A stretch of 64,000 nucleotides of DNA from Ferruginibacter paludis (GTDB taxonomy: Bacteria > Bacteroidota > Bacteroidia > Chitinophagales > Chitinophagaceae). Under the pieces are notes generated by a model. It had not been told where the DNA came from and searched no databases. It worked only from the letters and a program-made list of their open reading frames with translations. The stretch lies in assembly GCF_030409685.1 (NCBI RefSeq), contig NZ_JAUFQJ010000001.1, positions 186,001-250,000 on the forward strand, given 5' to 3'. Below are positions 40,980 to 62,483 of this stretch, in pieces (position 1 is the stretch's first letter; each line of letters opens with the position of its first letter). Position numbers and translations under genes: made by a program.

Positions 40980-41035
40980 TAAAGGTAAAGAGATGTTTTG
41001 CTGAGATCCGGACAAGATGGTGTCAATTACAGACA
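40980..41035 (-). promoter_or_regulatory. Shared operator/promoter, site E (GlxA-type regulator)
   Basis: Minus strand, 5' to 3': TGTCTGTAATTGACA (41035-41021), six bases, TGTCC (41014-41010), 22 bases, then the -7 box TACCTTTA (40987-40980). The ATG is 26 bases further at 40953. Spacing is identical to sites A, B, C, F and H. Confidence 0.75.
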
Positions 41036-41151
41036 GTTAAATTGCTATCAGTTTCATGAAAATTTTAAAAATGCCTGATAAATATTTAAGCTGCCAGCCG
41101 GGTAACAAATTGAATCCGTATCCATGGCTTTCCTTTGCTGCTGCAGTCATA

Positions 41152-42675
41152 TCATCGATCGTTTTTCTCTTCATCAATTTCGTTCTGTATTCTTTTATTT
41201 ATATCAATCTTAGCCTTTATAAAAACAAATATGGTTGTTCCATATTCCCTGGCAAAAGAATTTGTTATGGCCCCAGCTACATACGCAGTGTCAAAAAAAG
41301 GCCCCGTTTCTTTTAATTCATTGTCTTTCTCCTCTGCAGTTTTTACCCTGATTAAGTTATCAAATTTTTTATCCAATACAAACCAGTTGATATAATCTGC
41401 ATTAAAAGAAACGGCCCTGTTGTTTTTATTTTTTGTATAGTAATTAATAGCCCCGGCCTGGCCATAATTGTCACAAAGAATGAGCGTGTGTTCACGCTCC
41501 GGAAGCGTTGAATGAATTGAGTCAATCTTGTACGCCAGCTCTTTCCAGCCAAGCATGTCTGCAAAGTCCTGTGGCAGGGAATGGTCTTTGCCGTCTTCCC
41601 AGCGTAATAAGCCCCAATTTTTATATGCCCCCGGATGACCTGCAATATAGGCAGGGCTTTTATTTGGAAATATTATTTTGTATATAGGGATGAAAAATAA
41701 TAATGGCAGGGCTATTACAGGGGGCTTTAAGTATTTTTTCCAGCCAGGTTGTAAAACCCTTTCGAGGTAAACGGAACCAAAAGCTATGTAAACTGGATAT
41801 AATCCGATGGCATAGTAGCTTTTTGCTTTCAGATAAGTAAAAATTGCCAGCGTAAAGCACAGTGTCCAAAAGAAAAACCTGTATTTTTTGAACGGCGGGT
41901 AAAATAACAGTGCATATAGTGCTGAAAAAATCACCAACAATGACCCGATAAAAAAGAGCAACTGATCTTTTAAAAAATTCCACCTGTTTACATTAACCAG
42001 CTGTGTTTTAGCCAACTGTTCCAAATGGTGAAATACAGGAAAGTTGTTGTGGTACTGCCATGCAAGATTGGGTGAAATAAGTGCGAGGCCCAACAAAATT
42101 GAAAGGTAAAAATGTTTATTGGTAAAAACCGAGCGCCTTGTTAGTAAGAGAGCGGGCACAAGTCCTGCCAGCACAAAGACGATATTGTATTTATTTAAAA
42201 ACCCGATAGCAAACACAGTCATTGCTATGTAAAACCATTTCGGATGTTCATCATTGGAGTATTTCACCAAAACAAAGCAAAAGGTGGTCCAGCAAAGTAC
42301 ATCCAGCGAATTGGGATGATATAATAAGTTCAATCGCAAAAGAGCGGAAAATAATACGCAGGTGGCGCCTGATATCAATGCAAAAAGATTTCCTTTCAAT
42401 GCTTCAATGGTTTTCCAGACAACAACTATTGTCAGCGCACCAAATAAAGCAGGAAAAAATCTAACCCAAAAAAGGGAGTTGCCTAAAAAGATGATGATGC
42501 TGGAAATCCAGCTTGTAACAGGAGGTACCGAAGTATATCCCCAGGCCAAATGTTTTGCCTGGTCAAGATGTAAAAACTCGTCCCGGTGCAACTCATATTC
42601 CTGGCCCACTACCATGTATTGGAGCAGCAATTTCGCAATGACAAAGAGTATTAAGATGTTTATTTTCTTTTTCAT
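41152..42675 (-). CDS. GT39-like (ArnT/PMT family) membrane glycosyltransferase, 507 aa
   Basis: About 11 transmembrane helices, with the first periplasmic loop reading ELHRDEFLHLDQAKHLAWGYTSVPP. The conserved acidic DE pair and the W-G-Y-PP segment are hallmarks of GT39/GT83 enzymes, which move a sugar from a polyprenyl phosphate to lipid A or proteins. The C-terminal soluble part has LILCDNYGQAGAINYY, also typical. The acceptor is unknown. Site F, about 310 bases upstream, is the nearest good promoter, with only a broken small gene in between. Confidence 0.85.
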   Translation of the reverse strand: MKKKINILILFVIAKLLLQYMVVGQEYELHRDEFLHLDQAKHLAWGYTSVPPVTSWISSIIIFLGNSLFWVRFFPALFGALTIVVVWKTIEALKGNLFALISGATCVLFSALLRLNLLYHPNSLDVLCWTTFCFVLVKYSNDEHPKWFYIAMTVFAIGFLNKYNIVFVLAGLVPALLLTRRSVFTNKHFYLSILLGLALISPNLAWQYHNNFPVFHHLEQLAKTQLVNVNRWNFLKDQLLFFIGSLLVIFSALYALLFYPPFKKYRFFFWTLCFTLAIFTYLKAKSYYAIGLYPVYIAFGSVYLERVLQPGWKKYLKPPVIALPLLFFIPIYKIIFPNKSPAYIAGHPGAYKNWGLLRWEDGKDHSLPQDFADMLGWKELAYKIDSIHSTLPEREHTLILCDNYGQAGAINYYTKNKNNRAVSFNADYINWFVLDKKFDNLIRVKTAEEKDNELKETGPFFDTAYVAGAITNSFAREYGTTIFVFIKAKIDINKRIQNEIDEEKNDR

Positions 42676-42717
42676 TCATTTATATTTTACCCCTGCTACA
42701 AGCTAACCTGTTTCAAG

Positions 42718-42910
42718 TTAATTTAAAATTTCACATTTAAATCCCAGGTTATTCAGATCTTTTACAAATTCCTCTGTATGGGAATTTTCCTTCCATTTAA
42801 TCATAAATTTTGACGGGATCATGTAAGTCAAAATCTACTCCGGCATCAAATAATATTTTTTTCAGGCTGTTTAATATGCGTTTTGCAGCTGCCTTACTTT
42901 GACCATTCAT
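42718..42910 (-). pseudogene. Small, probably frameshifted gene under site F
   Basis: Two overlapping minus-strand frames look coding: 42797-42910 (37 aa, MNGQSKAAAKRILNSLKKIL, FDAGVDFDLHDP) and 42718-42822 (34 aa, MIKWKENSHTEEFVKDLNNL, GFKCEILN). They are in different frames and seem to be consecutive parts of one small protein. A third frame upstream reads TTIDEWSK just before the first. No family is recognised. It could be a decayed gene or two short coupled peptides. Confidence 0.45.
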
Positions 42911-42986
42911 CTATCGTGGTATAAGTATTTATTTGGTGTGCCGTTTATGTCTGTACTTATTTTGATTTTTACTGGTGCTCTGAACA

Positions 42987-43042
42987 TAAAGTTATCCGGA
43001 ATGGGATAATCCGGGAAGACAAACTTCTGTCATAAACAGACA
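42987..43042 (-). promoter_or_regulatory. Shared operator/promoter, site F (broken gene and GT39)
   Basis: Minus strand: TGTCTGTTTATGACA (43042-43028), six bases, TGTCT (43021-43017), 22 bases, then TAACTTTA (42994-42987). It lies directly after the terminator of the metallothionein-like gene. The first possible start downstream is at 42910. Confidence 0.7.
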
Positions 43043-43043
43043 T

Positions 43044-43072
43044 AAAAAAAGCCGCCCCATTAAGGAACGGCT
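43044..43072 (-). terminator. Terminator of the metallothionein-like gene
   Basis: On the minus strand AGCCGTTCC pairs with GGGGCGGCT (nine pairs, two of them G-T) across a TTAAT loop and runs into seven T's. Confidence 0.8.
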
Positions 43073-43096
43073 GGTGGTTGCTTCAGCAGGATTAAC

Positions 43097-43311: not shown

Positions 43312-43887
43312 TTAAATTTTATCCAGGGATTTACGCTTTGCAATGCCGATCTCTTTAAAGTAAGTAGGCGTTAGCCCTGTTATTTTTTTAAACTGGGTAG
43401 ACAGATGGGCTGTACTGCTGTACTCCAGATCGAAGGCAATTTGCGACAAAGTCAGTTGCCCGTAAATTAATAGCTCTTTGGCTTTTTCAATCCGCTGTTC
43501 AATAAAATAATTTTCAATAGTTCTTCCTTCAACAGAAGAAAATAAACTGCTCAGGTAAGTGTATTCATGACTCACTTTTTCGGTAAGATAACGTGACAGT
43601 TTTATTTTGCTTTCCTTTTCATCGACTTCGTTTCGGGCCCGTTTAATGACAAGCTGCTTAATTTTTTCAATGAGCCCTACCGTATAATTGTCAATCAGTT
43701 CAAAGCCAATTTTACCCAGCTTATTTACCAGCCGCTCCTGTTGGTCCGGCGACAGTTTTTCCGCCAAATTGATCTCACCAAAATTTACATTTTGAAATGG
43801 GATTGATTCCTTTTTTAAAATGTCCTCCACCGCAAGTATGCAGCGATGACATACCATGTTTTTAATAAGTAATGTTGTTGAAGTCAT
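43312..43887 (-). CDS. AraC-family regulator with HMA-like N-terminus, 191 aa
   Basis: The N-terminal 70 residues resemble a heavy-metal-associated fold: LLIKNMVCHRCILAVEDIL, with the Cys13/Cys16 CxxC pair, and FELIDNY. The C-terminal AraC helix-turn-helix reads LTLSQIAFDLEYSSTAHLSTQFKKITGLTPTYFKE. I recall this architecture as a recurrent Bacteroidota family; a metal-sensing role is inferred. It starts 12 bases after the stop of the DUF6010-like gene, so it is in an operon with it and the DUF2147 gene. The metallothionein-like gene follows it. Confidence 0.88.
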   Translation of the reverse strand: MTSTTLLIKNMVCHRCILAVEDILKKESIPFQNVNFGEINLAEKLSPDQQERLVNKLGKIGFELIDNYTVGLIEKIKQLVIKRARNEVDEKESKIKLSRYLTEKVSHEYTYLSSLFSSVEGRTIENYFIEQRIEKAKELLIYGQLTLSQIAFDLEYSSTAHLSTQFKKITGLTPTYFKEIGIAKRKSLDKI

Positions 43888-44822: not shown

Positions 44823-46004
44823 TTAGTTGTAATCCAGCGATATTTTCACAAATTCGCCGAAGCGGCTTCCATATTGTTCATTGATTCTTTTTAAACAAAT
44901 ATCAATCGGGTATTGCTGTTGGAGGGTGTCGTAACAGATTATTTTAGCATTGTTAAAAATCGATCCGGCATCTTTTTGAAATGAGGAGGGCTTCAATAAA
45001 TGCACTTCATCTAATCCTTTTAACCGGGCTTTACCTTTATTTATCAATGTCAGTCCATATTTTGTTTGGATGGTAGTGTCGTTTAAATTGAAGGTTGTAA
45101 ACGATGCAGGGAAAGTGCGGCCATAGGTCTCTATGATGCTTGCCATTTCAAATTCATTCATCCCATTTTCAAGCAGCATACCTATGTTCCTGTTCTTTCT
45201 GAACATAACTTTTTTAACCACAGTAAATATATTGCTGCTACCGAGTGCCACACTTGTATGAGTTGTTTTAATTGCATTAACAGGATAATAAATACTTCTC
45301 AAAACGGTTTGCATTGTTTCCCTGCCAAACAATTCATTGATAACTGTAAGGCTGCCTTCCACGGCATTGGATACACCTGCGGTACTGTAAAGATTGCCGC
45401 TATTTGCAACCGCAACATCTTTTATCCAATCCGGTTTACTGAAGTGTTTTTTCAAACCGGTAAAGTCAGATGCATGACAGGTTAAGGGTTTGCCATCGTA
45501 GAGCCCCGTGGCAGCTGCGGTAGATGCGCCATCACATACGGCCAGCATTTTAGTGGTTGGTGTAAAATGGACTTTTATCCAATTGGTAATTGTCGAATCC
45601 TGGTGTTCATCCCTTGTTGATAAGGCCGGAATTACAATAACATCAGCTTGTAGTTGCATAGCGTCGGCTTCGTCAAAAGTTAACTGTGGTGCCACAAACA
45701 GGTCCCGCTTTATTAAAATGGGCGTTTTGTCTTTTGTAATGATATACACATTGGCTTTTTCAGTTGCGTTGAATAAATAGAATGGAGCCAACATATCAAA
45801 CAGTACGGTCAATCTGGAATCTGCGATGATGAAGACATTTTTTTTTGCTGCATCATGGACCAGCTGTTTCATCTCAAAATTACGTTCACCCTGCCAGGGG
45901 GCTGGCGGATGTGTAAGATTACGAACAGGGCCGCAGGCATTTAAGCATAGTGCTGCTAACAATAGTAAGCTTACTGCTAAAGCTGAAGTTTTAAATATTT
46001 TCAC
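44823..46004 (-). CDS. Lipoprotein with tandem DJ-1/PfpI-like domains, 393 aa
   Basis: The frame opens with a lipoprotein signal (KIFKTSALAVSLLLLAALC then LNAC). A DJ-1/PfpI-like domain follows: VFIIADSRLTVLFDMLAPFYLF, VIVIPALS, MLAVCDGASTAAATGLYDG with the nucleophile Cys, and STAGVSNAVEGSL. From about residue 290 a second, partial copy begins: NIGMLLENGMNEFEMASIIETYG. The start is taken as GTG at 46004, which leaves a short leader from the weak site D promoter; the longer frame starts with TTG at 46028 inside the -7 region. DJ-1-like domains outside the cell are unusual. Confidence 0.75.
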   Translation of the reverse strand: MKIFKTSALAVSLLLLAALCLNACGPVRNLTHPPAPWQGERNFEMKQLVHDAAKKNVFIIADSRLTVLFDMLAPFYLFNATEKANVYIITKDKTPILIKRDLFVAPQLTFDEADAMQLQADVIVIPALSTRDEHQDSTITNWIKVHFTPTTKMLAVCDGASTAAATGLYDGKPLTCHASDFTGLKKHFSKPDWIKDVAVANSGNLYSTAGVSNAVEGSLTVINELFGRETMQTVLRSIYYPVNAIKTTHTSVALGSSNIFTVVKKVMFRKNRNIGMLLENGMNEFEMASIIETYGRTFPASFTTFNLNDTTIQTKYGLTLINKGKARLKGLDEVHLLKPSSFQKDAGSIFNNAKIICYDTLQQQYPIDICLKRINEQYGSRFGEFVKISLDYN

Positions 46005-46025
46005 GATGATGATAGTTTTTGATGG

Positions 46026-46082
46026 CAAAAAAATGCCTTGTAATTAATATTTTTTCGGAGAACCAGCCGTCAAAAACAGACG
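46026..46082 (-). promoter_or_regulatory. Weaker shared operator, site D (DJ-1-like lipoprotein)
   Basis: Minus strand: CGTCTGTTTTTGACG (46082-46068), six bases, TCTCC (46061-46057), 23 bases, TTTTTTTG (46033-46026). It differs from the others at one base in each TGTC/GACA end and by one base in spacing. Confidence 0.45.
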
Positions 46083-46120: not shown

Positions 46121-46477
46121 TTAGTAGTCCTGAATTTCAGATTTTGCAAATTGCTTTTTAAACGCAAAGTGATACCGCTCACTTTCACCAATGCGAACAG
46201 GATAGGCGTTAATGAATACCCAACCGTCTTTGCTCATATAATTCATGGCATCAATAATGGTATTAAATTTTTTAATTTTTCCATCATAAGTTTTAAGCCT
46301 TGTATCCCGCCAAAAACTTTTCTCTTCACCAAAGTCAATATCAATGGTTACTTTATTACTCAGTATTCTTTGGGTAGCGATTAGCTGGCAGTATTGCTCA
46401 ATCTTAGAAGTGTCTGACTGTGCGTTTGAAGCCTGTGAATACAATAGGACGACAGCTATTATGATAAATTTTTTCAT
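46121..46477 (-). CDS. Exported protein of unknown function, 118 aa
   Basis: A signal peptide (MKKFIIIAVVLLYSQASNAQ) followed by a small mixed domain: KVTIDIDFGEEKSFWRDTRL, FNTIIDAMNYMSKDGWVFINAYPV, YHFAFKK. The DAMNYMSKDGWxF pattern is something I recall from short Bacteroidota exported proteins of unknown role. It starts one base after the stop of the small peptide gene at 46479 and is co-transcribed with it from site A. Confidence 0.7.
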   Translation of the reverse strand: MKKFIIIAVVLLYSQASNAQSDTSKIEQYCQLIATQRILSNKVTIDIDFGEEKSFWRDTRLKTYDGKIKKFNTIIDAMNYMSKDGWVFINAYPVRIGESERYHFAFKKQFAKSEIQDY

Positions 46478-46478: not shown

Positions 46479-46673
46479 TTATTTGTTTTTAATTTGATTG
46501 ATTAAATTATTGAATACTTCCTGTTTAAGATTTGATGTTGAATCGGCTTTGGACATTTGAGCATTAAAAGTTCCAGGCGACTTGCCAGGTACTTGCTTTA
46601 TTTCAAGAGACACACATTGCAGAAATAAAGCAACAGAGCCAGCAACCTTTAGTCCGAACAGGATTTTTTTCAT
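46479..46673 (-). CDS. Small exported peptide heading operon A, 64 aa
   Basis: Begins MKKILFGLKVAGSVALFLQC, a lipoprotein- or signal-like stretch, then a hydrophilic tail. The start resembles that of the small peptide at 53614-53835 (MKKVVFAIQVFGLLAMFPVC): both share MKK, VF/LF, V-G spacing and a cysteine at 20. Each is the first gene after a copy of the shared operator. Function is unknown. Confidence 0.65.
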   Translation of the reverse strand: MKKILFGLKVAGSVALFLQCVSLEIKQVPGKSPGTFNAQMSKADSTSNLKQEVFNNLINQIKNK

Positions 46674-46705
46674 TTTGTTATTATTTAACTGCAGTTTGAT
46701 GATGT

Positions 46706-46761
46706 AAAAGTATAGTGGATCCTGGGAGGCTAACGGACATCATAATGTCAAAAACGGACAA
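46706..46761 (-). promoter_or_regulatory. Shared operator/promoter, site A
   Basis: Minus strand: TGTCCGTTTTTGACA (46761-46747), six bases, TGTCC (46740-46736), 22 bases, TACTTTTA (46713-46706). The ATG is at 46673. It lies directly after the stop of the upstream barrel gene. Confidence 0.75.
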
Positions 46762-47571
46762 CTATAAAGCATTAAAGATGTTATGCTCTAACCGGATAAA
46801 AAAGCCATTTGGTGCGGTTCTTAATAAACTGCTGCTTATTTGTTTTCTGTAGCCTATGTCTATTCTGCTTTCGCTGTTAAATATCAATTGAATTGAAGGC
46901 GCAATATCCAGGTAATATTTTCCTGATCCGGTGTTAACCTGGCTTAAGGTTTCTACCATCAGGTTTATATTTGTCTGATGGTAATTGCTGTATTCCTTCG
47001 GTAACATTAATTTACCAATTGATAAACTGTAGTTAATTGCCTTGTTATTTTTTGTGCCATATACATATTTGTTGTTGTTGCCGTTGTCCGATGCTTTTGC
47101 CAATGATATGGAAGACGACAAAGCAACCTTATGTAATAATTGAGTAGCGACCATGCCTGTTTCAAAGCCGGTGTTATGGCCGTACATATTGATTTCTTCC
47201 TGGTGAATATCACTGTTATTAAAACTCATTGTTCCAAAAGCAGCCATACGGAAATGCTTTTGTACTGCATCATTACTCAGGAACCGGTACTTGGCATAAA
47301 TACCGCCGCCTTCTTTTTTAAGTTGTTTGGTGCGGTTACTAAAAAAGGCGTTGGCATCGATCATTAATTTCTTCGATATACCGATCCGTATTTCGGGAAT
47401 AAGATGATAGTTTATTTTTGAAGAGTTGGTTTCATCCATAATAGAATTATCAATCCTGAAACCAATACTTCCTGCGGCCATATTACTGGCCGGTTCCGTC
47501 ATTGAAAACAATTCCTGGGCATGACAGGACAGGGAAAGAAAAAGCATTCCCAATAAAAGTAACTTCGTCAT
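46762..47571 (-). CDS. Putative outer-membrane beta-barrel protein, 269 aa
   Basis: Signal peptide (MTKLLLLGMLFLSLSCHAQ). The mature protein is made of amphipathic strands (GSIGFRIDNSIMDE, INYHLIPEIRIGISKKLMIDANAFF, YYLDIAPSIQLIFNSESRIDIGYRKQI) ending NGFFIRLEHNIFNAL. It is the last gene of the RND efflux operon (starting at 53835), 39 bases after the HMA gene. It might help metal or drug export across the outer membrane, but no family is recognised. Confidence 0.65.
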   Translation of the reverse strand: MTKLLLLGMLFLSLSCHAQELFSMTEPASNMAAGSIGFRIDNSIMDETNSSKINYHLIPEIRIGISKKLMIDANAFFSNRTKQLKKEGGGIYAKYRFLSNDAVQKHFRMAAFGTMSFNNSDIHQEEINMYGHNTGFETGMVATQLLHKVALSSSISLAKASDNGNNNKYVYGTKNNKAINYSLSIGKLMLPKEYSNYHQTNINLMVETLSQVNTGSGKYYLDIAPSIQLIFNSESRIDIGYRKQISSSLLRTAPNGFFIRLEHNIFNAL

Positions 47572-47610: not shown

Positions 47611-48093
47611 CTACAGACTGACATGAAAGATTTCAGGAGATGAAGCTATAAAAGAATTCATTTTATATTCCTTTGGTGACACAAAGCCCTTGTCCAGTAT
47701 TTTAACTTGTTTGTCACCGTTTAAAATATACTCTCCGGTATTTACAAAAAGAAATGTTTTATCCTGAAATATAACAGGTTGCCGGTCCTTCACCCGGACA
47801 TTGTCAAAATGAATATGGGCAACAAAAGCGCAAACAGTAAAGCCTGCACTTTCAACGCTTTTTCTTAGCATGTCAAAATTGATAACACTGTTTGGTTTAA
47901 ATGAAATCTCAAAAGTGGATGTCTTAATTTTGGCGTCTACCTTTTGAACAAAATCGAGTTTTTTTAATGCTTTGTTAATTGCATTACTGCACATGCTGCA
48001 TGTTAAACCACTAGCCTGTAAAGAAACGGAACTAACCTGTGCCCTTGCTGTAATTGATACAGCGATGGCAATAAATAGAATAATCTTTTTCAT
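47611..48093 (-). CDS. Exported HMA-domain metal-binding protein, 160 aa
   Basis: A signal peptide (to about ARAQ, residue 19) is followed by an HMA fold with GLTCSMC (Cys32, Cys35), ALKKLDFVQKVDAKIKTSTFEISF and SVESAGFTVCAF. The CxxC in this context binds Cu or similar ions. The rest (RQPVIFQDKTFLFVNTGEYILNG) may be a second domain. In a periplasmic location next to an RND pump it could deliver or sense metal. It is 19 bases after the RND gene. Confidence 0.82.
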   Translation of the reverse strand: MKKIILFIAIAVSITARAQVSSVSLQASGLTCSMCSNAINKALKKLDFVQKVDAKIKTSTFEISFKPNSVINFDMLRKSVESAGFTVCAFVAHIHFDNVRVKDRQPVIFQDKTFLFVNTGEYILNGDKQVKILDKGFVSPKEYKMNSFIASSPEIFHVSL

Positions 48094-48112: not shown

Positions 48113-51100
48113 TTAAATTTTTGGTGCCAGTAATTTGTATAGAACAGGCGTTACAACCCGTGAAAGAATTAATGAACTGATCAGGCCACCGACCAATACC
48201 CATGCAAGCGGAGAATATAAGGGAGAGTGCTCCAGTATAAGTGGAATTAAGCCGCCAATGGCTGTCATAGTGGTTAGAATGATCGGTAAAAAGCGTGTCT
48301 CACCCGCTTCGTGAATGGCTTCATCCAATGTCTTTCCCTCACGGCGGAGATGATTGGTATAATCTACTAACAGGATTGAATTTTTTACCTCAATGCCTGC
48401 CAGAGCAATAATGCCGATGACCGCAATAAATGAAAGGGTGTTGCCGGAAATTAATAATGCTATTACAGCTCCGATGATTCCAAGAGGTATAACAGAAAGC
48501 ACGATCAGGGTACTTTTGAAAGTTTTAAACTCCAATAATAAAATTGCCAGGAAGCCAAATACGGTAATGAGTATAATTTTTCCAAGGCCGCCAAAACTAT
48601 GCGCCTTGCTTTCCACTTCGCCCGCAACCATATAACTAAAGCCCTCAGGCATACGAAGTTTCTCAAGTGATTCCACCACTTTATTAGTAACGGCTTCGGT
48701 GTTGAATCCCTGGGCTACTGAACTTGAAATAATGATGTACCTTTTTTTATTGTAGTGTTTGATTGTTGGAACAGAGGTTTGAAAATTAAGATTGGCCAGT
48801 TGATTGACGGGCACCATGGCACCAGAATAAGATGGCACATATATTTTATTGAACACATCCAATGTTTGATTTTTTTCCCTACTAAGGCTTACCGAAATAG
48901 GATAATCATCTCCTTTTTGATCTTTATAGTTGGCGATATTGATACCTGAAACACCTAAACGTATGGTACGGTCTATCTCTTTCAGCGCAATGCCCAGTAA
49001 GGCTGCTTTATCCTTGTTAATATCTACTTTAATATCGGTTTTATAGGTTTGTAAAGGGTTACTCACATAAATCGTTCCTTCGGTAGCTTTGATAATCCCT
49101 TCCACTTGTTTTGCCATTTGCTTCAACGAGTCCAGGTCTTCTCCAAATACCCTGATCACAATGGGCGCTTCAATCGGCGGGCCCTGCTCAAATTGCTTTA
49201 TTTCAATTTTGGCATCCGCCACATTATTGAACCGGCTTCTTAATTGCTGAATCAATTGTTCAATCTCCGGGAAATCCATTTCTTCCAGCCGCACAAATAG
49301 TTGAGCATAATTAGGCGATTCATTTTTTTGAGCAATATTGTAATAGATACGGGGATTGCCTTTACCTACATTGCTGGAAACTGACTTCACTTTTTGTTGC
49401 GCTGCTATTACATGTTCCACTTCATGGGCAAGGCTGTCCGTTTTATAAATGCTGGTACCAAGCGGCGTTTCTATATTAACCAGAAACATCGGTTTTTCCG
49501 ATCTTGGGAATAAACTGAATCCAACAACTTTAAACAAAAAGAGGCTTCCAACAAAAAGTGATAAGGCAATACCAAGCGTTGTTTTAGGTTTAGATAAAGC
49601 CTTGTCGAGCAGTTTCGAATAAGAGCCGGCAATTATTTTTTGCAAAGCCTGCATAAATATATTCCCTGCCGGGTTGTGGTTTTTTTTGAGCAACCTGCTT
49701 GCAAGAAATGGGACAATGGTCATGGAAACAAAAAGGGAAGCCAATACAGTAAAAATAACAGCCATAGGCAGGCAACGAATAAAATCGCCCGAGGTTTCCG
49801 GAAGAAAAACGATTGGTAAAAATGCAACAATTAAGATGGCCGTACAACCCAGCACTGCAATTGCAATTTGTTTGGTTCCCTTAATTGCAGCATCCATTCT
49901 TGAATATCCGTTGCGTAGATGTCGTTCGATATTTTCCACCACTACGATGCTGTCATCTACAAGCAAGCCCAATGAAATAATTAAACCTACAATGCTCAAC
50001 TGGTTAATGGTATAACCAAAACTATCCAATAAGAATAATCCGATTGCTATTGAAAGCGGAATGGAGATCATTACAATTACAGATGCCCGGCTACCAAGTG
50101 GAATCAGTGTTATAAGCACGAGCAATACCGCTATTAAAAAATCCTTAGAGAAATGAGACAGCCGCCTGCTTACATCTTCAGCTTGCACAAAACCTCTTTC
50201 AAGTTTTACAGAAGTTGGCAGTGTCGCAGTAAAACGGGACAAGAGTTTCTCCACCTGTTTGTTGACGGCAATGATATTCGTTTTGTCTTTTTCATTGATT
50301 GAAACAAACAATGCTTTTTTTCCGTTGAAGCGGGCTATGTAGGTCTCATCCGCATGTTTCATTTCAACCGCAGCAATATCTTTTAAATAAACAATCCGGT
50401 CGGCTGTAGCCAATACAACCGTATTTTTAATTTCATCCAATGAAGCATAATCGCCACTGGTTTTGATATTGAATTTTTTTCCACCTGCATCAACGCTTCC
50501 CCCGGGAATATTTTTAGCATCGCTTTGAACGATGGCCAATACAGCATTCAGAGAAAGTTTGTTCTGAGCCATCTTTTCCAGGTCTATTGAAATCCTTACC
50601 TGCTCCTGGGGGTAGCCATTTATTTTAACCTTTTTAATATCACTGATTGTTTCCAGGCTTTTTTTCAAACGGTCCGCTTCATCATAAAGTTGCCGGTAAG
50701 TGGCACTGTCTCCCACCAAAGCCAGTTGATAAGTATTGATATCAGATGCCGTAATTTTCTGAATATCTATTGACAATAAATCCGCAGGTAACGATGACCT
50801 CAAAGCGTTCATTTCCCTTACCACTTCATTGTATTTTTCATCCGGATTTTCTTTGTACATGAATTCCACTTCGGTAACACAAACCCCATCATTGATATCA
50901 GAACGGATTCTTTTAATATTATCCAGTTCATTTAATTTTTCTTCAATAGGATCTGCCACCAGTTTCTCCATATCATTTGGACTCGTACCGGGGTAAACCG
51001 AAACAACAACAAATGTGGGTGGCGTGAATGTTGGATCTTCGCCTCTTGGCATGTGTAATAATGATCCGAGACCCAGTGCCAGCAGCAATACAAAAATGAT

Positions 51101-52206: not shown

Positions 52207-52216
52207 TTTTTGTTGT

Positions 52217-53866: not shown

Positions 53867-53922
53867 TAAAGGTAGAGCGGCTTTCAGCGGCCGGAAGGAC
53901 AGGCTGATGTCAAAAACGGACA
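53867..53922 (-). promoter_or_regulatory. Shared operator/promoter, site B (RND efflux operon)
   Basis: Minus strand: TGTCCGTTTTTGACA (53922-53908), six bases, TGTCC (53901-53897), 22 bases, TACCTTTA (53874-53867). The operon ATG is at 53835. The 15-base distal block is identical to that of site A. Confidence 0.8.
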
Positions 53923-54324: not shown

Positions 54325-55278
54325 TTAGACTTCGATTGCAACATTTCCTTTCTTATGTCCTTTGTCAACATAAGCGTGCGCTTCTGCAATTTGCTCCAAT
54401 GAATAAGTTCTGTCAATTACAGGTTTCAATTTATCTGCTTCAATAAGCACCTTTAGAAAATTAATATCTGCTGCTGTATGACTAATTACACCTGTGATTA
54501 CCTTTTTGTTACTTGTCATCGAAACCCAAAAGCCCTGCAGCATTTCTGACATTCCTGCGGCGCTAAGAATCATGATGCCATTTTTATTAAGTGATTTCAA
54601 ACTTCGAAAAACAGGTATTGTTTTCACTGTATCAAAGATGACATCATAAGTTTCCCCATCTTTGGTAAAATCCTCCTGTGTATAATCAATTACTTTATCT
54701 GCTCCGATCGATTTTACTAAAGCAATATTTGCAGTGCTGCAAACACCGGTAACATTGGCTCCAAATGACCTGGCCAATTGAACGGCGGCACTTCCCACTG
54801 CACCGGAAGCGCCTACTATAAGCACTTTTTGCCCTTTTTTTATTTTTGCTTTTTTTATAAAATGCAATGCTGTAACTCCACCAAAAGGAATTACTGCTGC
54901 TTCCTTATGAGAAATATTAGCAGGTTTTAAAGCCAAAGACCCATTTTCGGGCAGACATTTATACTCAGCGTAGGAACCAAAACTCATATCCGTATGACCA
55001 AACACAAAGTCACCCACTTTAAACTTTTTTACATCTTTCCCGATACTTTCAACTTCGCCTGAGAACACACTTCCAAGAATATTAATTTTTGGTTTTGTCA
55101 AGCCGAAAAAAAATCTCACTGCAAATGGATCGGCTTTTCGCAATCTCACATCACCTGAATTGACTGCGGTGATTTTAACCCTTAATAGAATTTCATTATC
55201 CTTTGGAGTTGGCTTTTCAACATCATTAACCTGGAGCACCTCTGGCGAACCATATTGAATGTAGACGGCTGCTTTCAT
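54325..55278 (-). CDS. MDR-type NADPH quinone/alkene reductase-like protein, 317 aa
   Basis: Medium-chain dehydrogenase/reductase without visible structural zinc cysteines. The N-terminal catalytic domain has MKAAVYIQYGSPEVLQV and VKITAVNSGDVRLRKADPF; the coenzyme domain has VLIVGASGAVGSAAVQLARSFGANVTGV with the AxxGxxG pattern typical of NADPH-binding quinone reductases. It probably reduces quinones or enals in the cytoplasm. It has no shared operator and stands alone. Confidence 0.88.
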   Translation of the reverse strand: MKAAVYIQYGSPEVLQVNDVEKPTPKDNEILLRVKITAVNSGDVRLRKADPFAVRFFFGLTKPKINILGSVFSGEVESIGKDVKKFKVGDFVFGHTDMSFGSYAEYKCLPENGSLALKPANISHKEAAVIPFGGVTALHFIKKAKIKKGQKVLIVGASGAVGSAAVQLARSFGANVTGVCSTANIALVKSIGADKVIDYTQEDFTKDGETYDVIFDTVKTIPVFRSLKSLNKNGIMILSAAGMSEMLQGFWVSMTSNKKVITGVISHTAADINFLKVLIEADKLKPVIDRTYSLEQIAEAHAYVDKGHKKGNVAIEV

Positions 55279-55407: not shown

Positions 55408-56235
55408 TTATTGTAAGTAATCGTTTACTTTAAGCAATTGGTATTCCGGGGAAGCGTCGAAAAATGAATTTAATAGGGTCATATGCCCTGCACCAAAGAT
55501 AACCAATACTCTGTCCGCTGGTGTTGTGTTTAATTTTTGAATATTTCTGAAAATTCTCAAATTTCTATTGAACCACCAACCTGTAACAAAGTCTGGCCCG
55601 AAAAATTTATTGTCGGTGGTTTCATACTTGAAAATACCAATCAAATAGGTGCCCAAATCTGATTTGATATTTTGGGGATCATTTTTTTGTATGAGTTCTG
55701 CCTTAATACCTTTTGTTTTGAAAATTGGTTTTGGAAAATATCGTTTTAAAGTATCCGCACATTGATTAAAATAGTTCATGAATTTTTTATTCTCCATGGT
55801 GTCCTTTCCCTCCAAAACTTTGTTCAGCGCCTCATAGTCTGTTCCCCAGGCGTTAACACAATTGAGTCTTTTCAGGTGCATCATTTTCGCAATCCTGAAT
55901 CCAATTTGTTCTTCTTCACCCCGTTTTAAATTATAGTGGCCTTGCAAATATTGATTATACAATGAGTCATATTTAGCTTGTTTCTCCGGATCTTCTTCAA
56001 TGGCGATAACGGTGGGTTTAAACTTAGCAATCCGTGCAACAATGTCTTCAATTTCCTTTTGATATTTAGGGTCAAGTACATCAATCTGGTCATCTTTGGT
56101 AGTTTTTATTAAGTCTAAATTGTGAAAAGCAAAATGGAATGACCCCAATGTCAATACCTCCACCTTTTTTTGGGGCTGTGCAAATGTACTAGCGATGAGG
56201 AGTGACAATATCACAGTTAGATTAAGTTTCATCAT
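55408..56235 (-). CDS. Exported DUF5694-like (EreA/TraB-like) protein, 275 aa
   Basis: A signal peptide (to about STFAQ) is followed by VEVLTLGSFHFAFHNLD near 28-44 with a conserved GSFHF, PTVIAIEEDPEKQ with a catalytic-type Glu, and a late DRVLVIFGAGHMTLL with the GAGH motif. This matches DUF5694 as I recall it, distantly related to erythromycin esterase and TraB-like proteins. The function is unknown. It may belong to the operon starting at 57831 (gap 111 bases to the barrel gene). Confidence 0.7.
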   Translation of the reverse strand: MMKLNLTVILSLLIASTFAQPQKKVEVLTLGSFHFAFHNLDLIKTTKDDQIDVLDPKYQKEIEDIVARIAKFKPTVIAIEEDPEKQAKYDSLYNQYLQGHYNLKRGEEEQIGFRIAKMMHLKRLNCVNAWGTDYEALNKVLEGKDTMENKKFMNYFNQCADTLKRYFPKPIFKTKGIKAELIQKNDPQNIKSDLGTYLIGIFKYETTDNKFFGPDFVTGWWFNRNLRIFRNIQKLNTTPADRVLVIFGAGHMTLLNSFFDASPEYQLLKVNDYLQ

Positions 56236-56346: not shown

Positions 56347-56961
56347 TTATTTAATTTTTATGCCTGCACCAAATTCTAAAGCAATATTATTCATATTGCC
56401 ATCCACAGCGGAAATATTAGTGGCTTTAACAGGCCAGGGATAAAGTGGTACATACATACGAAAACTGAAAAAATACTTTTTTACGCCCTTCTTCAGGCTA
56501 TACATCAATCCATAATCAGGACTTAAAGCGTTTACTCCTGCACTTACATTTTTGTTATCTGGATTAAGTAAAATTTCCTTAAAGGAAGTATATTTTATAC
56601 CAGCCATTAATAGAAATGTATTGGAGCTTCTTTTTGAATAGAATGTAGTACCTACGCCAAACTTTTGGTTAATGGAATAATTGTATTCAGTTTTGATACC
56701 ATTAAAATTTCGCTGAAGTAAATTGTTGATATTATAAGACGAATGTGAAGCAAAGGCAAGATGTTTCTTAGGATTCCATTGAACCAGGTTTGTGATGAGT
56801 AAATCTGTTCCAAAATTAGAATGGATACCAATGCCCAGCTCAATGGTTAATTGCCTTACTGCAAAATGTTTTTCTTTTATTGCCTGTTTTTCTGTTTGTG
56901 CAAGACTATTACTAAAGGTTAACACTGATATAATGAAGAATAAAAATTTATGCTGTTTCAT
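56347..56961 (-). CDS. Outer-membrane beta-barrel-like protein, 204 aa
   Basis: Signal peptide (MKQHKFLFFIISVLTFSNSL, AQ) and amphipathic strands: QLTIELGIGIHSNFGTDLLI, TEYNYSINQKFGVGTTFYSKR, FFSFRMYVPLYPW, ending MNNIALEFGAGIKIK. It has no recognised family. It lies 45 bases downstream of the esterase gene and is probably transcribed with it from site C. Confidence 0.65.
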   Translation of the reverse strand: MKQHKFLFFIISVLTFSNSLAQTEKQAIKEKHFAVRQLTIELGIGIHSNFGTDLLITNLVQWNPKKHLAFASHSSYNINNLLQRNFNGIKTEYNYSINQKFGVGTTFYSKRSSNTFLLMAGIKYTSFKEILLNPDNKNVSAGVNALSPDYGLMYSLKKGVKKYFFSFRMYVPLYPWPVKATNISAVDGNMNNIALEFGAGIKIK

Positions 56962-57006: not shown

Positions 57007-57831
57007 TTACTTGTTTTGAAAATAGAAATGGAGGCCCTTTTCTATATTTGGATTTCTTGACCCCAGATGATCTAAATTCTTTTCATGATTTTTTTCGAGT
57101 TTAATATCAGAATAGTTTTTTTGCAGCGCTTGGTAAAATGCCTCAAAAGGGGCTTGCATCCTTCCTGCATTTTCTGCTTCGCCGATGCCCATAAATACCA
57201 GTTGTTGTCTTGTTTTATTATCGTTCCTGTTATCCTTTTCCTGCCGTAAAGCAATAAGATCATCAAACCAAAATGAAGGGCTCAGTAAGATATAATTACC
57301 AAACAATTTATTATGAATACTAAAAGCATATCCACCAAATAAACCTCCATATGAGTGACCAAGAATTACCCTGCTGGCTCGGGCAGTATCTACCTTATAA
57401 TCCTGCTCAATTTTGGGTATTAATTGCGTTTTAATAAAATTCAGGAATTGAGGAGCACCGCCAGTTATTGAGCTAATTTTTGTTGGAGTGTAATCTATAC
57501 TGCGGTCTTGCCCGTACCCAATGCTTACAATCACTACATTTTTAACAGCAAGGTTATCGGAAATTTCTTTGCACTTATTAGCGACGAAATCAAAAATATC
57601 ATTCCCGTCCAACACATAGATAGTTGCATATTTTTCCACCAGGGGATTGTAATTGGCGGGTAACCCAACCCTGATTTGATAGGAGGCATCGTTTGCAGCA
57701 GATTGTAAAGTAAACTCTTTTGTTGCACCTGAGTTGAAGGATTCTTTTTTGCATGAGCCAAGTAGAAAAAGCAACATAATTGCACTTGTTGATGCGAAGA
57801 TTTGTGTGAGTAAAATTGCTTTCTTTTTCAT
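57007..57831 (-). CDS. Esterase (EstD/IroE-like alpha/beta hydrolase) lipoprotein, 274 aa
   Basis: A lipoprotein-type signal with SCKKES after the hydrophobic stretch (MLLFLLGSC), then an esterase D-like alpha/beta hydrolase: RVGLPANYNPLVEKYATIYVLDG, VIVSIGYGQ and the nucleophile elbow VILGHSYGGLFGGYAF (GHSYG, Ser at about 161). A late His, LDHLGSRNP, may complete the triad. Family members hydrolyse siderophores, acetyl esters or S-formylglutathione. The gene is directly under the shared operator, site C. Confidence 0.85.
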   Translation of the reverse strand: MKKKAILLTQIFASTSAIMLLFLLGSCKKESFNSGATKEFTLQSAANDASYQIRVGLPANYNPLVEKYATIYVLDGNDIFDFVANKCKEISDNLAVKNVVIVSIGYGQDRSIDYTPTKISSITGGAPQFLNFIKTQLIPKIEQDYKVDTARASRVILGHSYGGLFGGYAFSIHNKLFGNYILLSPSFWFDDLIALRQEKDNRNDNKTRQQLVFMGIGEAENAGRMQAPFEAFYQALQKNYSDIKLEKNHEKNLDHLGSRNPNIEKGLHFYFQNK

Positions 57832-57860: not shown

Positions 57861-57916
57861 CAAAGCTACAGCGGCTTTCATCCTTCGAAGGGACAGTTTG
57901 ATGTCAAAAAAGGACA
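57861..57916 (-). promoter_or_regulatory. Shared operator/promoter, site C (esterase operon)
   Basis: Minus strand: TGTCCTTTTTTGACA (57916-57902), six bases, TGTCC (57895-57891), 22 bases, TAGCTTTG (57868-57861), a full -7 consensus. The ATG is at 57831. Over the 22-base spacer it also shares TGAAAGCCGC with site B. Confidence 0.8.
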
Positions 57917-59058: not shown

Positions 59059-60126
59059 ATGAAAAAGTCTTTTATTGTCTTATTACACATCGGCTTTTGG
59101 GCCTGCTATTTTATTTTGATTGTAATCATGTTAAGTGTTTACTATCGCAGCAGCCTGTATGCCAGTGCGCCCAACTCCCGCATGGTGATTGCTTTTAAAA
59201 ATATCTTATTGTTTGCCTTTACACCCTCCTTTATCACATTTTATTTATACTATGTTATTTTATTTCCTAAATACCTGCAGCAAAAAAAGTTTCTCCAGTC
59301 CATTGCTGTCGGCTTGCTTATATCCATTTGTGCATCTATTATAGCCTACATCCTGCACCGCTATTTAATAGAGACAGGCCGTGTGATCGACATGGACCAG
59401 GGTGGAAAAAACGGCCGGTCTACTGCTGTAAGGGTAATTATTATCATGACTTTTATTGGTTCTGTTTGTGGCATGGTGGCGTTAGTGATTAAAGGTTTTA
59501 TCACCTGGTTCAACGAAATAAAATTGAAGCAGGCATTAAAAGAGAAGAACCATGAAATGGAACTGGCACTGATTAAATCCAAGCTGGATCCGCATCTTCT
59601 CTTCAATACCATCAATAACATCGATGCACTTATTATAAAAGACGCTGTTGAAGCATCCAACTACTTAAATAAGTTATCCGACATTATGCGGTTTATGTTG
59701 TACGAGACAATGGCGGACCAGATACTGCTGTCGCAGGAAATTGAATACATTGAAAAATACATCGCCCTGCAAAAAATAAGAACATCCAACGCCAATTATG
59801 TACGGTTTTTAGTAACCGGTCCGATTGGTAATAAGATGATTGCCCCGATGGTTTTTATTCCCTTTATTGAAAATGCTTTTAAACATACCAACAATAAAAA
59901 ACTGGCGAATGCCATCACCGTTCATATCGTAATAAATGATAAAACCATACAATTGGTATGTGAAAATAAATTTGATTCGAAACCGACCGTGCGGCCACCT
60001 GACAGCGGCTTAGGCAATGAGCTGATTCAAAAACGGCTACAACTTATTTACCCGGAAAAACATGTGCTGGAAGTGCATAAAACAGCTGAATTATACACCG
60101 TAAACTTAACGATTACCAATGGATAA
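59059..60126 (+). CDS. LytS-type sensor histidine kinase, 355 aa
   Basis: Four transmembrane helices in the first 150 residues, a short coiled linker, then a HisKA_7TM/His_kinase (LytS) domain: the phosphoacceptor region KLDPHLLFNTINNIDALI with His179, where most relatives have NPHFLFNT, and an ATPase part with FIPFIENAFKHTNNKKL and SGLGNELIQKRLQLIYP. It phosphorylates the LytTR regulator whose ATG overlaps its stop codon by eight bases. No sensing domain is evident outside the membrane part. Confidence 0.92.
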   Translation: MKKSFIVLLHIGFWACYFILIVIMLSVYYRSSLYASAPNSRMVIAFKNILLFAFTPSFITFYLYYVILFPKYLQQKKFLQSIAVGLLISICASIIAYILHRYLIETGRVIDMDQGGKNGRSTAVRVIIIMTFIGSVCGMVALVIKGFITWFNEIKLKQALKEKNHEMELALIKSKLDPHLLFNTINNIDALIIKDAVEASNYLNKLSDIMRFMLYETMADQILLSQEIEYIEKYIALQKIRTSNANYVRFLVTGPIGNKMIAPMVFIPFIENAFKHTNNKKLANAITVHIVINDKTIQLVCENKFDSKPTVRPPDSGLGNELIQKRLQLIYPEKHVLEVHKTAELYTVNLTITNG

Positions 60127-60814
60127 ATATACCTGCATCATTATTGAAGACGAGCCACTGGCGCTGGAAAAAACAAAAGACTTTGTAAACAAAGTTCCCT
60201 TCTTAAATTTAAGCGCCACGTTCGACAATGCCTTGAGTGGCCTTACCTACCTGAACAACAATAAGGTAGATGTACTTTTCCTGGATATTAATATGGATGA
60301 ATTATCCGGCATAGAATTACTGGAAAGTTCTAAAATAACCAGCCAGGTTATTATTACAACAGCCTACCAGGAATATGCTTTAAAGGGCTATGAGCTGCAC
60401 ATTACAGACTACCTTCTAAAACCATTTACATTCAATCGCTTTTTACAAGCCGTAAATAAAGCACAGGAAAATTTAAGCAAGCGTGTAGCGGAAAAATCAT
60501 TGGATTTTATTTTCGTGAAAACAGAAAACCGACTTGAAAAAATAATGATCAATGACATCCTTTACATAGAAGGGATGAGAGATTATTTACGCATTCATAC
60601 GCCCGGTAAAAAGATCATGACCTTGCAGGGTTTCAGCGAGCTCGAACAGCTGATACCAGCTCACCTGGTATGCAGGGTACATAAGAGTTTTATGGTTGCC
60701 ATCAATAAAATAGAATCTATCGAACGCAGCAGGATTAAAATTGCAGATCAGCTGATTCCAGTTTCAGATACCTACAAGGAAGCCTTCCTTCAACTCATCA
60801 ACAGCAAGCCATAA
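60119..60814 (+). CDS. LytTR family response regulator, 231 aa
   Basis: A receiver domain (CIIIEDEPLALEKTK, phosphoacceptor Asp56 in VLFLDINMDE, TTAYQEYALKGYELHITDYLLKP) is joined to a LytTR DNA-binding domain from about 130 (FIFVKTENRLEKIMINDILYIEGMRDYLRIHT, QGFSELEQLIP, CRVHKSFMVAINKIESI). LytTR proteins bind direct repeats two helical turns apart, the spacing seen between the outer half-sites of the shared operator, so it is an alternative candidate regulator of that regulon. It overlaps the kinase gene and is translated with it. Confidence 0.95.
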   Translation: MDKYTCIIIEDEPLALEKTKDFVNKVPFLNLSATFDNALSGLTYLNNNKVDVLFLDINMDELSGIELLESSKITSQVIITTAYQEYALKGYELHITDYLLKPFTFNRFLQAVNKAQENLSKRVAEKSLDFIFVKTENRLEKIMINDILYIEGMRDYLRIHTPGKKIMTLQGFSELEQLIPAHLVCRVHKSFMVAINKIESIERSRIKIADQLIPVSDTYKEAFLQLINSKP

Positions 60815-60905
60815 TCCATCCGGAATTTGGAAGATTAAAAAGCCCCGTTGGCAGACATCATTCTTCGCTTTGCATAGCTGAATTGCACGCCCACAGCCGT
60901 TCCTA

Positions 60906-60913
60906 TACTTTTG
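60906..60913 (+). promoter_or_regulatory. -7 box (TACTTTTG) for the barrel gene at 60952
   Basis: TACTTTTG fits the consensus and lies 38 bases before the ATG. The shared element does not occur at the expected spacing upstream. Confidence 0.5.
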
Positions 60914-60951
60914 CTTCAGTTAAATAATTAACCAACTTTAAAAAAATTATT

Positions 60952-61602
60952 ATGAAGCAGAAATTACAAACAGTACTCGTAACGGGTATGATTTTTTTGG
61001 CAGCAAACACCTTCGGTCAAACCAACACTTACCTGGATTTGATGATCAATGTGGTAAGCACTAACCTCAATTACGGTGATGCCAACAAATCGCTGGCCGA
61101 CTATAAAAAGTCAACCAATGGTATACAGGCTGGCGTATCCTTCCAGGCTGGTATCACACCCGCATTTTCAATTGTTCCCGAATTGTATTATATGAGGAAA
61201 GGTGGCAAATTAAAAGTAAACAATCCGATCACCACTAACGAGTCAAGCCTTCGTTTAAACACTTTGGAATTACCGCTGCTGGGCCGTTTACACATGGGTA
61301 GATTTTACGTGAATGCAGGGCCATCCATTGCCTACAACCTGAGTGGCAAAAACACCATGGGCGATCTGTCAACCAAACTCTCTTTCAATAATACCGACGG
61401 AGGTTTTAAGCGGTGGGATGCAGGTGTTCAGATGGGTGGTGGTGTTGAGTTTCCTTTTAAACAAAAAAGAATCGCCATTGACATCCGGTACAGCTATGGT
61501 TTAAGCGACATATCGTATGACAGGGAAATACACAACAGGGCAGTGATGGTGAGTGTGCATTTTTCCAAAGCATGGTTAACAAACCCATTGGGAAGAAATT
61601 GA
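60952..61602 (+). CDS. Porin-family outer-membrane beta-barrel protein, 216 aa
   Basis: Signal peptide (to NTFGQ at 23) and barrel strands: SFQAGITPAFSIVPELYYMRKGGKL, LRLNTLELPLLGRLHMGRFYVNAGPSIAYNLSG and GFKRWDAGVQMGGGVEFPF, IAIDIRYSYGLSDI, the PorT/OmpW-like porin family pattern. It ends SVHFSKAWLTNPLGRN. It might be a target of the adjacent two-component system; this is inferred from position only. Confidence 0.78.
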   Translation: MKQKLQTVLVTGMIFLAANTFGQTNTYLDLMINVVSTNLNYGDANKSLADYKKSTNGIQAGVSFQAGITPAFSIVPELYYMRKGGKLKVNNPITTNESSLRLNTLELPLLGRLHMGRFYVNAGPSIAYNLSGKNTMGDLSTKLSFNNTDGGFKRWDAGVQMGGGVEFPFKQKRIAIDIRYSYGLSDISYDREIHNRAVMVSVHFSKAWLTNPLGRN

Positions 61603-61682
61603 TACTCCTAACGGCGTTCTTTCAACACAGTGTTGTCCATCGTTTCACAAAAAACAGTTGATCAATTTTAAAAAATAGCAAC

Positions 61683-62420
61683 ATGAATACCATTCAAAAT
61701 ATAGCTCTCCGCATGGATGTACCAACAGCAAGCGTGCCGATGACTTCACTGCGGAAAAGATCGCTCACTGCAGGCATATTGTACCTGCTCACATTTGTAT
61801 CCATCCCAACGTTGGCACTCTATCGTCCGGTGCATGCTGCAAACTATATCACAGGTCCTGGGCCTGATACCGCTGCCATCATTGGTGCCATTCTCGAAAT
61901 CATCGTGGCACTCGCCGGCATCAGCACCGCAGTGGTGTTGTACCCGGTGCTAAGGAAACAAAATGAAAGTGCCGCATTGGGCCTTGTTGCCGCACGCATT
62001 CTTGAATCGGGCACCATCTTCGTTGGTGTGGCTTTTCTGCTGTCAATAGTAACGTTAAGACAAGCAGGATCCGGTGCAGCTGCATCGGTTACCGGTCATG
62101 CACTTTCAGTGCTTTATGACCGCATCTTTTTACTCGGGCAAAGTTTTATGCCGGCTATATGCGATCTGCTGCTTGGTTTCATGTTGTACAAGTCCCGCCT
62201 GGTACCACGAGGCCTTGCGATCATTGGGATGGTGGGAGCAGTGCCGTTGGTGGCGGGTTATGTAGCTATGCTGTTCGGTGTAATCGGGCAACATTCGCCC
62301 CTGGCAGGATTGTCCGCAGTACTGGTTGCACTGTTTGAATTCTCGCTGGGCATTTACCTGGTAGTTAAAGGATTCAGGCCATCGGGAATCACTGCCGGTA
62401 TTCAAATGGAAAGCGAATGA
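61683..62420 (+). CDS. DUF4386 membrane protein, 245 aa
   Basis: Six hydrophobic helices with the DUF4386 pattern: RSLTAGILYLLTFVSIPTLALY, GAILEIIVALAGISTAVVLYPVL, ARILESGTIFVGVAFLLSIV and SRLVPRGLAIIGMVGAVPLV. Function is unknown. Its DNA is richer in G+C than that of its neighbours, which may mean transfer. A weak, poorly matching copy of the shared element precedes it near 61620-61637. Site H starts eight bases after its stop. Confidence 0.85.
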   Translation: MNTIQNIALRMDVPTASVPMTSLRKRSLTAGILYLLTFVSIPTLALYRPVHAANYITGPGPDTAAIIGAILEIIVALAGISTAVVLYPVLRKQNESAALGLVAARILESGTIFVGVAFLLSIVTLRQAGSGAAASVTGHALSVLYDRIFLLGQSFMPAICDLLLGFMLYKSRLVPRGLAIIGMVGAVPLVAGYVAMLFGVIGQHSPLAGLSAVLVALFEFSLGIYLVVKGFRPSGITAGIQMESE

Positions 62421-62427
62421 TTGTATA

Positions 62428-62483
62428 TGTCTGTATCTGACATTGGGCTGTCCTTTGAGGCGCTGAAAGCCAGGGTAGTTTTG
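62428..62483 (+). promoter_or_regulatory. Shared operator/promoter, site H (plus strand)
   Basis: TGTCTGTATCTGACA (62428-62442), six bases, TGTCC (62449-62453), 22 bases, TAGTTTTG (62476-62483). It is the only strong copy on the plus strand, with the same spacing throughout. No start codon with a good frame follows closely. Confidence 0.75.

Follow-up and report, generated by a model that had tools for sequence, protein, structure and literature searches.

Operator sites in the window

The window, a 64,000-nucleotide stretch of Ferruginibacter paludis DNA (contig NZ_JAUFQJ010000001.1, positions 186,001 to 250,000, forward strand), carries six promoters with a common three-box operator and, behind one of them, the gene of a 304-residue regulator named here the GlxA-like protein, or GlxA (40039-40953, minus strand). 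This protein, assigned from Pfam and from motif co-occurrence, combines a DJ-1/PfpI domain with an AraC-type double helix-turn-helix (HTH). The shared arrangement proposed in a preliminary description of the window was recovered at all six promoters and at the places given there, with a -7 box of the form TA..TTT[AG] exactly 22 bases downstream in 6/6 sites. A seventh, degenerate site precedes the gene of a DJ-1 lipoprotein; its counterpart is likewise degenerate in genome G016, and sites found with a weight matrix (see below) precede the DJ-1 lipoprotein gene in other relatives. The sites are the following, matches being to TGTCYGTNNNTGACANNNNNNTGTCY:

Site a, 41010-41035, minus strand: exact match; -7 box 40980-40987; operator of the GlxA-like gene itself
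Site b, 43017-43042, minus strand: exact match; -7 box 42987-42994; upstream of a broken 70-residue gene
Site c, 46735-46760, minus strand: exact match; -7 box 46705-46712; heads a 64-residue leader open reading frame (ORF) at 46479-46673, then 46121-46477
Site d, 53897-53922, minus strand: exact match; -7 box 53867-53874; heads the RND operon
Site e, 57891-57916, minus strand: TGTCCTT, 1 mismatch; -7 box 57861-57868; heads the esterase unit
Site f, 62428-62453, plus strand: -7 box 62476-62483; followed by the remnant of a 254-residue gene, then by an alpha/beta hydrolase gene
Site g, 46057-46082, minus strand: degenerate, with 3 mismatches; precedes the gene of the DJ-1 lipoprotein (44823-46028)

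When up to 3 mismatches are allowed, the motif occurs 7 times in the window: five occurrences are exact, one has a single mismatch and one has 3. In 100 dinucleotide shuffles the mean count was 0.31 and the highest 2. Exact occurrences of TGTCYKT-n3-TGACA-n6-TGTCY in the 6.92-Mb genome number six, all on contig 1, inside a 21.4-kb part of the window. Beyond these six sites the whole genome holds 8 weaker matches, of which seven have 2 mismatches and the remaining one has 1; they are no more numerous than those of the reversed-pattern control (9). The operator pattern is confirmed as real and far above chance.

Conservation of the operator in relatives

A search with GlxA gave 53 loci from Chitinophagaceae, Saprospiraceae bins, Mucilaginibacter, Pedobacter, Arenibacter, Flavobacterium, Arcicella and other bins. 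These loci contain 92 motif matches with at most 2 mismatches, compared to 2 in the reversed DNA, and 44 of the 53 have at least one. The weight matrix built from 70 non-redundant sites (39 sources) displays three strong boxes, TTGTCcGTttY, TGACAt and YTGTCcTT, together with the -7 box, and little conservation between them. Its YAnnTTTR peak at offset 48 fits the sigma-A -7 box of Bacteroidota. The spacing, whose conservation the preliminary description had proposed to check, is kept in relatives: n3 is found in 53/53 cases and n6 in 53/57, the other four having n10 and none any of 14 other spacings tried, while the -7 box follows at 22 bp in 48 sites and at 23 bp in three. Nor are matrix matches as frequent inside genes as before them, since 105 of the 112 matrix sites in relatives overlap no ORF longer than 300 bp, such ORFs making up 79% of the DNA (simple ORF calling).

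In the window, the spacer between operator and -7 box holds GCTGAAAGCC or near variants at sites d, e and f, at offsets 34-43 counted from the beginning of the site. Spacers of this type are found also in other genera, and the matrix has weak peaks at offsets 33, 36, 40 and 43.

Half-sites had been placed at offsets 0, 11 and 21. The outer two stand, the middle one does not: TGACA lies at offset 10 and is better read as a direct TGnC than as an inverted half-site. Diverged regulators bear on this point. Among GlxA homologues of 34-58% identity, TGnC-n6-TGnC-n7-TGnC is present 66-93 bp upstream of the own start in 12/25 (for instance TGGCTCAAAATGTCCGCTGGTTGGCT at a 51% GlxA), the 0/10/21 geometry of TGnC occurring at 45/3900 positions of a random control that may itself include real sites. 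Locus L207 shows the core geometry too; it was excluded from the 25 for having too little upstream DNA. The middle box is TGTC rather than TGACA in 10 of these 12 promoters, which disfavours a reading of TGTC...GACA as an inverted repeat; direct TGnC repeats at 0/10/21 are the better description of the three boxes. The operator has the direct tandem half-sites with a period of about 21 bp (TGTCY at offsets 0 and 21) that characterize regulators of the GATase-1-type AraC subfamily (GATRs).

The core is found at the own promoter of 15/51 GlxA genes of more than 60% identity, and 39 GlxA genes lie inside site-led units; in part of the relatives a site is positioned about 80 bp upstream of glxA. 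Three glxA-like genes, one of them with an internal stop, lie in a 10-kb stretch of locus L195 (genome G111, 5.9-16 kb), together with operators of two flavours, TGTCC-TGACG-TGACC and TGTCC-TGTCC-TGTCC. This is possibly a natural instance of an operator that diverged jointly with its regulator. The GlxA tree separates Arenibacter from Flavobacterium, and Flavobacteriaceae needs 3 changes, which hints at GlxA transfer between families.

Probable identity of the regulator

The region encodes three DNA-binding candidates: GlxA, a short AraC-type protein (43312-43887) and a LytTR response regulator (60119-60814). A set of 98 genomes that counts the source genome was searched for the full promoter pattern and for each of the three, and two further samples, of the class (395 genomes) and the family (394 genomes), for sites and GlxA; the samples overlap and shared ancestry is uncorrected. 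Within the 98 genomes, matches with at most 1 mismatch occur only in G000, G016, G020, G028, G047 and G050, and an intact GlxA of at least 84% identity is encoded by exactly the same six. Another 19 genomes have 3-mismatch matches only, and G044 has a glxA fragment (residues 100-303, with a stop) and no site. In the family sample, GlxA reaches 60% identity or more in 26 genomes, and 23 of these, from 12 genera, carry sites with at most 1 mismatch, versus 4/368 of the others (Fisher p 4e-30, ancestry uncorrected). These figures become 25/26 and 7/368 at up to 2 mismatches, and none of the 19 genomes of this sample whose best GlxA falls below 60% has a site match. A GlxA of at least 60% exists in only three genomes of the class sample (G000, G298, G111), where matches with at most 2 mismatches amount to six in G000, four in G298, one in G207 and a single 2-mismatch match in each of 7 genomes, the control giving 8. 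One of the four G298 sites is directly upstream of its 77% GlxA; G111 has no match at this level, yet two near-canonical sites by matrix.

Comparison between genomes shows, at the level of sequence, a rigidly spaced site that lies mostly between genes, is linked to GlxA and is present at the GlxA promoter. Since its own promoter carries the site and the sites co-occur with it across genomes, the GlxA-like protein 40039-40953 can be named with good confidence as the putative regulator that would bind the operator.

Both domains characteristic of GATRs, the DJ-1/PfpI (GATase-1-like) domain at the N-terminus and the AraC double HTH at the C-terminus, are present in GlxA (Pfam DJ-1_PfpI 2.4e-17, HTH_18 6.4e-13, HTH_AraC 8.5e-12). 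Its AlphaFold model (mean pLDDT 82) consists of the DJ-1 domain and a C-terminal seven-helix region, connected by a linker (192-212) with pLDDT below 50. The best solved fold match is 3gra, an AraC-family regulator (Z 24.8, residues 1-192), and InhA reaches Z 24.1; the matches listed for the whole model cover the DJ-1 part only. MarA (1bl0) was matched at residues 210-304. The best NCBIfam model is FtrA NF006902 (E 8.1e-50, residues 38-301), but the score of 169.8 bits for a cut-off of 425 rejects GlxA as an FtrA equivalog. It is rejected likewise as a GbdR equivalog (NF052371, 101.8 bits for a cut-off of 480). Cys106, Cys109, Cys126 and His129 are invariant in 52 GlxA sequences of at least 65% identity, that of the window included. 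Below 65%, Cys109, Cys126 and His129 are kept in 27/27 sequences and Cys106 in 21/27. The isonitrile hydratase InhA has T, C, A and H at the aligned positions.

Genes behind the operators

The matrix detects 119 sites, 7 of them in the window, and 114 have an ORF behind. The first gene is GlxA in 25 cases, a DJ-1 lipoprotein in 17 (the window's own counted), a leader ORF in 11, a cyclase-like protein in 10, an esterase in 9, a DUF6010 protein in 8, an HMA protein in 7, a DUF2147 protein in 6 and a multicopper oxidase in 5. Pfam identifies multicopper oxidase, DUF3347 and HMA domains in site-led units, as well as one MauE+HMA protein. The genes of the window that stand behind or between the sites are:

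42724-42907, minus strand: broken 70-residue gene, pieces in two frames (tblastn of the relatives' 70-residue proteins)
44823-46028, minus strand: DJ-1 lipoprotein, DJ-1/PfpI without HTH, behind degenerate site g
46479-46673, minus strand: 64-residue leader ORF, opens the site c unit
46121-46477, minus strand: gene after the 64-residue leader ORF, site c unit
53614-53835, minus strand: 73-residue leader ORF, opens the site d unit
52217-53602, minus strand: TolC-like outer membrane factor (OMF), site d unit
51166-52257, minus strand: adaptor, site d unit
48113-51145, minus strand: RND pump, site d unit
47611-48093, minus strand: periplasmic HMA protein with a CSMC motif, site d unit, near the operon end
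46762-47571, minus strand: last gene of the site d unit
57007-57831, minus strand: esterase, first gene of the site e unit
56347-56961, minus strand: gene of the site e unit
55408-56235, minus strand: DUF5694 protein, site e unit
54325-55278, minus strand: zinc-type dehydrogenase, site e unit
62484-62640, plus strand: remnant of a 254-residue gene behind site f, intact in G016
62710-63558, plus strand: alpha/beta hydrolase, after the remnant
41152-42675: glycosyltransferase
43312-43887, minus strand: short AraC-type protein with N-terminal MVCHRC (Pfam HTH_18 1.6e-16)
59059-60814, plus strand: histidine kinase and LytTR response regulator (the latter 60119-60814), neighbours in the regulon stretch

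Two of the six window units, those of sites b and f, are damaged. The preliminary description had called the gene behind the 43.0-kb site broken, and tblastn bears this out with remnants of a conserved 70-residue protein in two frames; intact copies stand upstream of glxA in some relatives. An HMA fold guessed by eye for this protein was negative in a Pfam search, and the protein matched no Pfam family. In G016, a sister genome, the counterpart of site f is followed by a 63-residue ORF and then by the 254-residue gene, of which only about the last 25 codons remain here (read by eye). The glycosyltransferase is present in only 2/53 regulator loci and looks like a passenger, the site upstream belonging to the broken 70-residue gene. 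Of the earlier proposal of one regulator with a local regulon, site-regulator linkage, intergenic placement and rigid spacing uphold the regulator and its regulon, and the glycosyltransferase probably drops out as a member.

The RND pump scores higher with NCBIfam multidrug models than with CusA models and passes no cut-off, so that a metal role for its operon is no more than suggested. Short leader ORFs (64 and 73 residues) open two main operons of the window, and similar ORFs lie behind sites in 11 cases. The DJ-1 lipoprotein, so often the first gene behind a site, may be secreted and act as a partner to the sensor domain of the regulator. The class-III-cyclase-like protein that comes first behind a site in 10 cases (L124:8840-9463 and relatives) has a cysteine-bearing tail, in which a YHS domain was guessed by eye and was negative in a Pfam search. 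In two Saprospiraceae bins, the ORF that comes first after the site (L118:11233 and L121:1339) encodes a 61-residue peptide that is rich in cysteine and resembles metallothionein; that of L118 has no Pfam family. The kinase, LytTR regulator, beta-barrel and DUF4386 genes (59059-62420 in the window) are also grouped in G044 (locus L209), where glxA is truncated.

Proposed mechanism and alternatives

Sigma-A promoters of Bacteroidota have a TAnnTTTG -7 box at -12 to -5 (PMC9723704). If the -7 box of the window sites is given these coordinates, the three boxes fall at -60, -50 and -39 to -35, and an A occupies the predicted +1 in 45/70 sites. The proposal that the proximal box sits at the position of the -33 element holds, box 3 covering about -39 to -35 and TTTG being found near -33 in only 4/70 sites.

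AraC proteins contain two HTH motifs per protomer, and the operators of ArgR, CdhR and SphR (see below) have a 21-bp or near-21-bp period; for these reasons the operator is read as a probable AraC-type tandem site for two protomers of GlxA. The distal protomer would set its two HTH motifs on TGTCYGTnnnTGACA (about -60 to -46). The proximal one would set its first HTH motif on TGTCY (about -39 to -35), in place of the -33 element, and would position sigma-A RNA polymerase on the YAnnTTTR -7 box. It is this replacement that suggests class-II activation. GlxA would control its own gene together with local efflux, periplasmic and detoxification-type genes, responding to a thiophilic-metal or thiol-reactive signal for which Cys106/Cys109/Cys126/His129 of the DJ-1 domain may be the sensor. 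That the signal is a metal or a thiol is no more than a fair guess, drawn from gene content and cysteines. We assign a probability of about 0.8 to this reading, that is, a GlxA-bound tandem operator with class-II activation of the regulator gene and a local set in response to such a signal; direct binding, the two protomers, activation and the signal are what we infer in it from sequence comparison. A wider scenario is possible and more doubtful. Horizontally spread DJ-1-AraC activators of Bacteroidota would sense copper or another thiophilic metal via a cysteine cluster (Cys106, Cys109, Cys126, His129) added to the DJ-1 pocket. Through the three-box operator, which takes the place of the -33 element, they would turn on genes for HMA proteins, multicopper oxidases, RND efflux and cysteine-rich peptides that together form a compact island.

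Several observations weigh against GlxA as class-II activator of these promoters. Nine of the 53 GlxA loci are without match, four of them contigs shorter than 5 kb, and the own promoter has no core site in 13/25 diverged GlxA genes and 36/51 closer ones. Three GlxA genomes lack a match with at most 1 mismatch: G684, whose gene is at a contig end, and G710 and G834, which have 2-mismatch matches. Conversely, G207, G579, G658 and G742 (4/27 motif genomes of the family sample) have sites and no GlxA above 26% identity. The genes at these sites are nonetheless typical of the regulon: DUF6010 and a leader ORF in G207, a DJ-1 lipoprotein in G579, a cyclase-like protein in G658 and an HMA protein in G742. 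Such genomes could be explained if glxA was lost, if the assembly has gaps (G742 is 79% complete) or if a second protein binds the sites; for G207, assembled as a single contig, glxA loss or another binder must be assumed. Finally, a fourth box was sought and TGnC occurs at offsets 28-37 in at most 1/70 sites, so that a second contact of the second protomer is not visible.

GlxA might bind the operator and repress, the site over -60 to -35 blocking RNA polymerase until the signal arrives. We consider this unlikely because the proximal box covers no conserved -33 element, which makes the promoters appear dependent on an activator; among known AraC-type regulators, CdhR is described as an activator and SphR as needed for induction.

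Binding by the short AraC-type protein 43312-43887, alone or with GlxA, is a little less likely still. This neighbour belongs to the right DNA-binding family; Pfam gives no HMA match for its N-terminus. Orthologues of 73% identity or more exist in 5/6 motif genomes of the 98-genome sample, G020 (67% complete) having none, and in G207, which has no GlxA orthologue, two strong matrix sites flank a 64% orthologue. Among 20 hand-chosen site genomes, however, the four exceptions included, only three have an orthologue of at least 60% and nine have no match at 1e-50. The gene lies within the flanking DNA covered at 21/53 regulator loci, its paralogues are common (38/98 genomes at 1e-10) and mostly without motif, and the diverged GlxA loci L197, L205, L206 and L207 have sites and no short AraC protein, which L195 does have. 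Its distribution rejects it as general binder, and G207 retains it as a rival.

LytTR regulators bind direct repeats, and the response regulator 60119-60814, encoded inside the regulon stretch, could thus recognize the 21-bp repeat TGTCY...TGTCY. This is very improbable. Orthologues of at least 86% are encoded by 8/98 genomes, three of which (G010, G025 and G044; completeness 77, 65 and 96) have no site, and G020 (67% complete) has sites without orthologue, so the sites do not follow the gene. It is within the flanking DNA covered at only 9/53 GlxA loci (median identity 46%), and it would leave the middle box unexplained.

Chance, or functionless copies of a dispersed repeat, has a negligible probability: a few promoters may be duplicates, given the GCTGAAAGCC common to some spacers, but the counts over shuffled and reversed DNA, the confinement of conservation in the 70 sites mainly to the boxes and the -7 region, the placement of matrix sites outside long ORFs and the footprint in diverged GlxA promoters refute it at the sequence level.

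Relation to known regulators and significance

The closest parallels are found in Pseudomonas. CdhR and GbdR of Pseudomonas aeruginosa are GATRs of the same GATase-1-type AraC subfamily, and PMC5806209 describes for CdhR direct repeats of the half-site GGTCGC with a 15-bp spacer and a 34-bp contact region, by arithmetic a 21-bp period. CdhR is called class I there and binds upstream of the promoter, whereas the operator described here abuts the -7 region at fixed spacing. Compared with CdhR/GbdR, box 2 (TGACA) is here as strong as box 1, phylum and gene set are different, and GlxA has the extra invariant Cys106 and Cys126, set apart by comparison with InhA rather than with CdhR. The AraC/XylS protein ArgR has a TGTCGC-N6-GNAA tandem with 5 bp between the repeats, the second less conserved (PMC10963909); a 16-bp box plus 5 bp again makes 21 bp by arithmetic. 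It differs in controlling an arginine regulon, in a second contact GNAA instead of TGACA and in a variable repeat separation in P. alloputida. The AraC-family SphR of P. aeruginosa has two direct TGNCCSNNRNNSNCC half-sites 6-8 bp apart (PMC3900636). Its 15-bp TGNCC half-site has nearly the shape of TGTCYGTnnnTGACA, with a near-21-bp period, but it is sphingosine-responsive, with a small regulon and in a different phylum. FtrA, the best NCBIfam model for GlxA, is set apart by the score far below cut-off. Neither a description of this operator or regulon nor a defined operator of this regulator class in Bacteroidota was found among the best-ranked open-licence PMC papers. The type of switch, an AraC-type tandem operator, is known; the GlxA regulator and its gene set appear undescribed.

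Bacteroidota promoters are unlike those of other bacteria, and here regulator, three-box operator and targets can be read from sequence in dozens of genomes, in any of which the weight matrix predicts regulon members. The middle box, passing from TGACA to TGTC, indicates how operators of the AraC type may change along with the protein. Should the DJ-1 domain prove to sense metals or thiols, a transcription switch would be connected to the cysteine pocket of DJ-1, which has been studied extensively.

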